This document shows positions 27,021-29,137 of a stretch of DNA of 64,000 nucleotides, piece by piece. Location: positions 62,001 to 126,000 of the forward strand of contig NZ_CAMCEC010000003.1 in the NCBI RefSeq assembly GCF_945873775.1, given 5' to 3'. Every line of letters starts with the position of its first letter. Within the stretch, counting starts at the first letter, position 1. This DNA comes from an uncultured Treponema sp. (GTDB lineage Bacteria > Spirochaetota > Spirochaetia > Treponematales > Treponemataceae). The notes beneath the pieces were generated by a model that saw only the letters and a program-made list of their open reading frames with translations, did not search any database and was not told where the DNA came from. The position numbers and the translations under genes were made by a program.

Positions 27021-28685
27021 ATGAGCATTTCGAGTATATTGTCTATATTCCTTCAGTTTTTTGGCAGTCTTTGTTTTCTTCTTTTTGGAATGAAAATGAT
27101 GAGCGATGGAATCCAGAAGTCTGCGGGAGATAAACTTCAGGCTGCTCTTCATCTTATGACAGGAAACCGTTTTACCGGATTTTTTACAGGCTGTTTTTTG
27201 ACTATGATAATTCAGTCTTCCGGGGCTACAACTGTCATGGTTGTTTCTTTTGTAAACGCCGGGCTTATCGAGCTAAGCAAGTCGATTGCCGTGATTTTGG
27301 GTGCGAATGTTGGAACAACGATAACGGCTTGGATTGTTGCTATATTCGGCTTTAATTTTCAAATTTCAGCATTTGCAATTCCGCTTTTTGGCATTGGCTA
27401 TCTTTTTACAGTTATAAAGAAAATAAGAAATCCGGGGCTTGGCCAGGCCATTATGGGATTTGGAATTCTTTTTATTGCGTTGCAGTGGCTTTCAAGCACA
27501 ATTTCGCTTAATTCAGGCTCAATGAATTTTCTTCCTGCCTTGCAAGACAAAGGAATTTTTAGCTATCTTATTGCTTTTGTAATCGGAATTTTTGTTACTG
27601 CAATGATTCATTCTTCTTCCGCTATGACGGCGATTGTAATTACAATGGCATACAACCAGATTCTTACTTGGCAATTTTCCGCGGCAATTATAATCGGAAG
27701 CAACGTCGGTTCGACTATAGATTCTGTTATGGCTTCGTTCGGGGCAAACGCAAATGCAAAGCGCACAATGCTTGTTCATGTTTTGTTTAATTCGTTTACA
27801 GCAATTGTCGCCTTGATTTTTATAAAGCCGTTTACGCAGTTTGTGGATTTAATTGTTCCGGGAACTGTTACAGAAAATATTACAATGCACATAGCGATGC
27901 TTCATTCAATGTTCAACATAATCGGCTCGCTTTTCTTTATGCCGTTTGTGAATCCTCTTTGCAAGCTTACGCATATTCTTATAAAAGACGACAAAACTTC
28001 ACTTCCTTCTATATATAAGTTTGAATTTCCTGAACGCGCCGCGCATGAGTCTCCTACAATTCCTGTTGTTTCAGCGCAAATGGAAGTAAGGCGTATGGCT
28101 GATATTTCTGTGCAGATGTTTGACAGGCTTCAGTACGGGCTTACTGATTTGTCCGGGCGTTTTGCTGTGGATCATTACGACAATCTTGTGCGCGAAGAAG
28201 ATTACCTTGACCAGATGCAGGAACAGCTTACAAAGTATCTTTTAAAATGCGCCCAGCTTGATATTGATGACAAGCTCCGTGAAAATATCAATGTAATGAT
28301 TTCGATTACAGGTGAACTTGAATCTATGTCTGATGATTGTTTGAGCATCGGCGTTTATCTAAAGCGCATAACAGAAAAGCATTACGTATTTAAGAAAGAA
28401 GATTTTGACCGCCTGATTCCTTATCTTGAGCTTGCACGGCAGCTGCTTCAGTTTATTTACAAAAATATCAACAAGGCTCTTTCAAAAGAACAGCTTGATT
28501 TTGCGAATGAACTTGAATCCCAGATTGACGCAGAACGCAAAGCCTTGAAAAAAATAGCGCGCAAACGACTTGAAGATGGTGCGGATGTAAAGGCCGAGCT
28601 TTTGTACATGGATTTAGTGCGCCAGATAGAAAAAATAGGCGACCGTTGCTTTAACATTGCCGAACAGCTTGCACTTACAAAATAA
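27021..28685 (+). CDS. Na/Pi-cotransporter family protein with PhoU-like domain
   Basis: A 554-residue membrane protein of the NptA/SLC34-like family, importing phosphate with sodium. The membrane part (1-310) has two inverted repeats with the diagnostic motifs QSSGATTVMVVSFVNAG and HSSSAMTAIVITMA, plus GANVGTTITAW and GSNVGSTIDSV. The C-terminal 200 residues (about 345-550) are soluble and helical, matching a PhoU-like regulatory domain (RRMADISVQMFDRL, EKIGDRCFNIAEQL). It is transcribed alone. A hairpin after it is oriented for the opposite strand. Confidence 0.92.
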   Translation: MSISSILSIFLQFFGSLCFLLFGMKMMSDGIQKSAGDKLQAALHLMTGNRFTGFFTGCFLTMIIQSSGATTVMVVSFVNAGLIELSKSIAVILGANVGTTITAWIVAIFGFNFQISAFAIPLFGIGYLFTVIKKIRNPGLGQAIMGFGILFIALQWLSSTISLNSGSMNFLPALQDKGIFSYLIAFVIGIFVTAMIHSSSAMTAIVITMAYNQILTWQFSAAIIIGSNVGSTIDSVMASFGANANAKRTMLVHVLFNSFTAIVALIFIKPFTQFVDLIVPGTVTENITMHIAMLHSMFNIIGSLFFMPFVNPLCKLTHILIKDDKTSLPSIYKFEFPERAAHESPTIPVVSAQMEVRRMADISVQMFDRLQYGLTDLSGRFAVDHYDNLVREEDYLDQMQEQLTKYLLKCAQLDIDDKLRENINVMISITGELESMSDDCLSIGVYLKRITEKHYVFKKEDFDRLIPYLELARQLLQFIYKNINKALSKEQLDFANELESQIDAERKALKKIARKRLEDGADVKAELLYMDLVRQIEKIGDRCFNIAEQLALTK

Positions 28686-28740
28686 AAAAGGCTGCCTAAG
28701 AACATTATGAAGTTTAATTCATTATGCGTTTTTGGCAGCC
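28683..28740 (-). terminator. Terminator of the small lipoprotein gene (minus strand)
   Basis: On the minus strand GGCTGCC (28734-28740) pairs with GGCAGCC (28690-28696), with a 37-base loop, followed by six T and ATT. A very similar stem with TTTTTTATT ends the hpf gene at 29624-29649. Confidence 0.65.
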
Positions 28741-28766: not shown

Positions 28767-29081
28767 TTATTTATAGCTGATAGCAATTCCGCTCATGTTG
28801 TAACTGTTGAATGTAAAAATAAGGAACACTGTTTTCTTTGCGTCAACTTTTACATTTACAACGTCATCGCATTCAGGGTACTTTTTCTTTGCTTCTGCAT
28901 AAAGCTTGCTGTAGCCAGAATTTGTGGCTGAAGATTTTACTTCTACACGTCCAAGAACTTCATAGCTTTGCGCATCACCTGGAAAAGCTCCTGCATCACT
29001 AAGTGGTGTCATAGAAATGCAGCCTGTTAGTGTTGCCGCTAAAATCAGCATAGACAACAATAAACCTACTCCTTTTTTCAT
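28767..29081 (-). CDS. Small lipoprotein, candidate phase-variable (TRL-like)
   Basis: A 104-residue predicted lipoprotein. The signal peptide MKKGVGLLLSMLILAATLTGC ends in a clear lipobox LTGC at residues 18-21. The mature part of about 84 residues contains SYEVLGRVEVKSSATNSGYS, a helix KLYAEAKKKYPECDDVVNVKVD and a hydrophobic strand FLIFTFNSY. This resembles small TRL-like lipoproteins, whose function is unknown; I hold the family name loosely. The start has a textbook GGAGG site. Its promoter contains a run of eight G between -35 and -10 (see 29110-29137), suggesting on/off switching of this surface or periplasmic protein. Confidence 0.78.
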   Translation of the reverse strand: MKKGVGLLLSMLILAATLTGCISMTPLSDAGAFPGDAQSYEVLGRVEVKSSATNSGYSKLYAEAKKKYPECDDVVNVKVDAKKTVFLIFTFNSYNMSGIAISYK

Positions 29082-29109
29082 ATTTACCTCCAGAAAAATG
29101 GGATATTTT

Positions 29110-29137
29110 ATTGTACCCCCCCCGGGGATTCTGTCAA
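29110..29137 (-). promoter_or_regulatory. Promoter with G8 tract in the spacer (candidate phase-variable)
   Basis: On the minus strand: TTGACA (29132-29137), a 16-bp spacer made of GAATCCCC followed by eight G (29116-29123), then TACAAT (29110-29115). The start codon is 28 bases downstream behind GGAGG. Gain of one G by slippage would give the optimal 17-bp spacer and loss of one would give 15 bp. Confidence 0.8.

Follow-up and report, generated by a model that had tools for sequence, protein, structure and literature searches.

G-tract promoter spacers in uncultured treponemes: a lipoprotein promoter probably subject to slippage-driven spacing change, and a recurrent promoter class

Promoters in which a homopolymer lies between the -35 and -10 elements have been known as switches from single genes. 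In Neisseria meningitidis a poly-G run in the spacer of the porA promoter sets the level of expression through its effect on spacing (PMC3639595, PMC7864442), and in Treponema pallidum the promoter of tp0126, which encodes an OmpW homologue, has a poly-G run in its spacer and is transcribed best at a spacing of 17 (PMC7864442). Most of the T. pallidum poly-G tracts of at least eight residues that have been tested vary in length, and those of the tpr genes are variable in vivo; at tprE/G/J, tracts of eight or fewer residues are permissive for transcription, and at tprL a tract of 7-11 residues, mostly nine, covers part of the -10 element and leaves the spacing unchanged (PMC7864442). Treponema goes unmentioned in Orsi et al. 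2010 on homopolymeric tracts.

We describe here a promoter of this general kind in an uncultured Treponema, situated upstream of a small lipoprotein gene, and a class of similar promoters in its genome, genus and family. We consider it likely, with a probability of roughly 0.8, that this promoter works by slippage-driven changes in the distance between its -35 and -10 elements, and that it belongs to a class, spread across the genus and family, whose target genes mostly encode lipoproteins or other exported proteins.

The promoter and the lipoprotein gene

The DNA analysed (the window) covers 64 kb of a draft genome of 2.59 Mb (G000). Direct reading of the minus strand from 29137 to 29110 gives TTGACA-GAATCCCC-GGGGGGGG-TACAAT, in which GGGGGGGG is a run of eight G residues preceded directly by C4. 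The features of the locus are as follows.

29132..29137, minus strand: -35 element TTGACA (sequence reading and promoter scan)
29116..29131, minus strand: 16-bp spacer, GAATCCCCGGGGGGGG (sequence reading and promoter scan)
29116..29123, minus strand: G8 homopolymer adjoining the -10 element; C3G9 in G238 and C3G8 in G198 (sequence and relatives)
29110..29115, minus strand: -10 element TACAAT (sequence reading and promoter scan)
29087..29091, minus strand: Shine-Dalgarno sequence GGAGG (direct reading)
28767..29081, minus strand: open reading frame of a 104-residue lipoprotein with lipobox TLTGC, ATG at 29081 (open reading frame list and lipobox)
28683..28740, minus strand: putative terminator, an inverted repeat GGCTGCC / GGCAGCC followed by a T-run (direct reading)

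The sequence bears out what the first-pass annotation had claimed of this promoter, namely a TTGACA/TACAAT pair with a 16-bp spacer containing G8; it conforms to the consensus at 11 of 12 positions and is the top promoter-like match between 26 and 32 kb. The G8 homopolymer falls exactly within the spacer, as had been proposed, and abuts the -10 element; it is indeed the longest G or C homopolymer of the window, being the sole run of either base that reaches seven. Taken alone, a single G8 in 64 kb is just mildly unusual. The predicted geometry is a spacer of 15 bp with G7, 16 bp with G8 and 17 bp with G9, so that the earlier statement about gaining or losing one G holds as a matter of geometry and single-unit steps straddle the 17-bp optimum.

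The -10 element lies 28 bp from the start of the lipoprotein gene, and both the GGAGG site and the clean lipobox noted previously are present. The N-terminus consists of a signal sequence with the lipobox, from which an envelope location is predicted. A Pfam comparison of the 104-residue protein found no family, and its NCBIfam matches, which include the Leptospira LIC11742 and LIC20211 lipoproteins, are all below threshold; single-sequence structure prediction gives a mean pLDDT of 52. The gene is a lone one, flanked by a convergent gene for a 554-residue membrane protein (27021..28685) and a divergent gene for an S30AE-family ribosome-associated protein. The putative terminator would be common to the lipoprotein gene and the convergent gene, and is missing from an automated scan because its loop is long.

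The two nearest relatives both carry the promoter. In G238 the protein is 100% identical and the flanks are 99.4% identical, with C3G9 in place of C4G8, a change that leaves the spacer at 16 bp; in G198 the protein is 98% identical and the tract is C3G8 with a 15-bp spacer. An orthologue with 65% identity in G176 has G8 and a spacer of 14 bp, and that in G174 has G9, a spacer of 18 bp and a TTGACT box. Among orthologues at a greater distance, nine (L002, L004, L005, L007, L008, L225, L226, L227 and L233) have a homopolymer at the same position, consisting of T8-T10 followed by G or A, with TATAGT as the -10 element and a spacer that is mostly 16 bp. Several other orthologues lack any homopolymer.

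A recurrent promoter class and its target genes

The genome has 60 G tracts of eight or more residues, where order 1-4 Markov models, fitted to the window only and so using its composition, predict 0-5 per 2.59 Mb. Ten of these tracts fall wholly within the interval that separates TTGACA from TAnnnT, and we estimate roughly that fewer than one would do so by chance, since promoter-like spacers make up much less than 0.1% of both strands together. The arrangement of TTGACA, G-run and TAnnnT is never produced by the Markov models, as against 11 instances recovered from the genome with the genus pattern search, and a pattern search of this genome gives nine matches, whereas the reversed control gives none. 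In two more promoters the spacer run is C8-C9. The promoter described here is one of about ten with a G tract in the spacer in this genome, in addition to the two with C tracts.

Across the genus, a search for G-runs of at least six in this arrangement finds matches in 92 of 200 genomes, with up to 20 per genome and one reversed-control match; the equivalent pattern with a C-run, included as a control, occurs in just 15 of the 200. The G pattern is present in 70 of 393 genomes in a sample of the phylum, representing 24 of 168 genera, again with one control match. Among the matches listed from 84,980 species genomes, the architecture is also seen in gut Clostridia and in other metagenome-assembled genomes, often several times per genome and often before genes for exported proteins; the pattern used there favoured spacers of 16 bp or less, and spacing in that set is uninterpretable. 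These listed matches include TTGACA-G8/9-TAnAAT arrangements from uncultured Clostridia of the gut and from other phyla (L105-L183); metagenome-assembled genomes of SIG415, CALVYR and Caccopulliclostridium have several each. In the phylum sample, genomes of the genus labelled g51 (G482, G539, G546, G523, G511 and others) have up to 11 matches each with G7 or more, mostly G9, with frequent ACC or TACC flanks, a spacer that is usually 19 bp and weak -10 boxes (TAGnnT), possibly representing another type of site.

The class within the genus has a characteristic shape. Among 150 listed promoters the mode is G9 (72), 132 have G8-G10 and shorter runs hardly occur; spacers are mostly 15-19 bp, with an overall scatter from 13 to 19 bp, and the length of the flank does not compensate for that of the tract (rho -0.02). 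In a set of 96 promoters there is little information beyond the -35 TTGACAA, the -10 TAnAAT, the run itself, A-rich positions 5' of the -35 element and a C before the run, which fits a homopolymer retained for itself and not a protein-binding site. Poly-T tracts were considered as a general promoter feature of the genus, and in the strict form TTGACA/T8/G-TAnnnT, present in just 8 of 59 genomes, they are not general; 12 of the 14 strict T-tract promoters found elsewhere drive lipoproteins or other exported proteins. Lipoprotein promoters with a C8-C12 run in the spacer (TTGACA-Cn-GATGTAAAAT) are seen at L047 and L050, and at L311-L313 of G238.

The genes under these promoters are strongly biased towards exported products. 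By a crude rule that accepts either a lipobox or a hydrophobic N-terminus, 83 of 90 first open reading frames downstream look exported. After clustering, this is true of 42 of 49 protein clusters, compared with 15 of 54 window genes scored by an almost identical rule (p about 3e-9), and 25 of the 49 clusters are lipoprotein-like as against 5 of the 54 (p about 3e-6). The lipoprotein enrichment is if anything understated, because the export rule gives false positives in the background set. In the genome under study the targets are lipoproteins, together with one protein that resembles a beta-barrel (L015) and one that resembles a sensor (L019). On contig C38, TACAAC follows each of two similar G9 tracts (L061 and L062), which lie 45 bp upstream of genes for a small cupin-like protein and a large membrane protein, which are possibly surface polysaccharide genes.

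Other G and C tracts in the genome have different settings. Poly-G lies early in the coding sequence of three lipoprotein genes at L034 (C9:53428), L015 (C1:161724) and L018 (C2:175612), which are assembled out of frame, such that the signal-peptide reading frame stops just past the tract and a long open frame goes on in another frame; these are candidate translational switches in the OFF state. The coding poly-G tracts at L024 and L056 are in frame. A repeated element with G8-G9 followed by TAGTGGAATGG...TTTTCAT or close variants occurs in at least seven places (L016, L020, L023, L052, L054, L055 and L058), each run being at the end of a short frame whose stop is set by the run length. At L025 (C5:65870-65892), G8 and C8 are arranged palindromically around AAGCCTT, apparently as a small repeat element.

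Tract-length differences and alternative explanations

Tract length differs between related genomes, both at the locus itself among three species and among close copies elsewhere, although the genomes compared belong to separate species with a nucleotide identity of about 95%, and run lengths in draft assemblies may be off by one. The near-complete genome of G238 contains three promoter copies, 97.7-99.1% identical over 311-324 bp, with runs of C12, C10 and C9 and spacers of 17, 14 and 13 bp respectively. Orthologous promoters in G357 and G396 have G12 and G9 and show no other gap over 327 bp; in both G164 and G131, paralogues differ by one G. In 25 pairs the rate of insertions and deletions in the spacer is 4.5 times that in the flanks (14 events in 354 nt versus 58 in 6556 nt), with a binomial p of 1.5e-5 that should not be taken at face value, as pairs share sequences and some were picked for differing. 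Nine G-tract pairs between this genome and G198 or G238, picked only for having the promoter, contain four spacer insertions or deletions, a modest excess.

There are several other readings to weigh. That the arrangement is a chance juxtaposition or an assembly artefact at a single locus is very improbable: one G8 per 64 kb is not rare alone, but recurrence across the genome and the genus with negligible control matches refutes chance for the class, and the same kind of tract is found at the locus in three separate genomes. A different proposal is that the tract is a static spacer element whose rigid geometry gives the promoter a fixed strength, with no switching. Several orthologous promoters with about 95% identity do share one length (L015/L243 and L043/L247), which is what this would predict. 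However, a fixed geometry is hard to square with spacers scattered from 13 to 19 bp in which flank and run vary without compensation, with near-identical copies that differ chiefly in the tract, or with runs whose base changes while the homopolymer stays, and the strong bias to exported proteins also argues against it; we regard it as unlikely.

The G run could instead be an operator for a DNA-binding regulator, with the promoters forming a regulon and tract length being incidental. Regulators of the CsoR/RcnR family bind G-tract sites, two PF02583 proteins are encoded in this genome, and the C3-4/G8-9 sequence gives partial symmetry at the locus and at some sister promoters; the constant TACC flank and fixed spacing of the g51 tracts also speak for this reading. 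Nevertheless, the regions upstream of both csoR-like genes are without a G tract, the 96 promoters have low information around the tract and no conserved flanking dyad, neither run length nor 5' flank is constant, and other promoters of this kind have a T or C run at that position. We therefore consider an operator improbable.

Proposed mechanism and relation to known systems

The preferred reading remains that of phase variation, which the first-pass annotation had suggested and which is supported by the existence of the class in the genome and genus, the peaked length distribution, the bias to exported proteins and the length differences between copies; for this particular locus we infer it. 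The promoter would be of the sigma-70 type, with a G tract prone to slippage determining its spacer length. As the DNA is replicated, slipped-strand mispairing would add or remove G residues and so shift the distance between the -35 and -10 elements from the present 16 bp, with 15 and 17 bp each one step away. Such a shift is predicted to alter the strength of transcription of the small lipoprotein, and populations with mixed expression could result, with a possible role at the cell surface. More generally, random change in tract length probably acts as a switch that turns envelope genes up or down in these bacteria, as it is known to do in T. pallidum.

A broader proposal, to which we would give about even odds, is that in treponemes and their relatives spacer homopolymers, mostly of G and sometimes of C or T, constitute a dispersed switchboard that has evolved repeatedly. 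As many as about 20 promoters per genome, each slipping independently, would set lipoprotein and outer-membrane composition in host-associated commensals and in pathogens, and the same architecture would have arisen in several gut Clostridia. What is new relative to the single genes described previously is that one promoter design recurs, mostly with lipoproteins as its targets, in many treponemes other than that of syphilis, and the interest lies in its scale and its targets. If correct, it would offer a cultivable or genetically simpler system for testing how treponemes diversify their envelopes, and a sequence rule with which to predict switching genes.

The first-pass analogy with T. pallidum needs refining. 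The precedent that matches is tp0126, with poly-G in the spacer and an optimum of 17; at tprL the tract leaves the spacing unchanged, and tprE/G/J illustrate permissive tracts of up to eight. The tprE/G/J and tprL promoters resemble the one described here in having poly-G at envelope genes, although the tprL tract occupies part of the -10 element whereas ours lies in the spacer. The likeness to tp0126 extends to the envelope nature of the product, and L015 likewise encodes an outer-membrane-type protein; the difference is that the gene here encodes a small lipoprotein with no family match and is under one of about ten such promoters, most of which have a consensus TTGACA. With porA the common feature is poly-G in the spacer and, at porA, a level of expression that shifts with spacing, although the organism and gene are unrelated and porA is a single locus encoding a porin. 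Because the geometry is the same as that of tp0126 and porA, at 16 bp now and 17 or 15 bp after one step, the promoter most likely works through slippage that alters its spacing.
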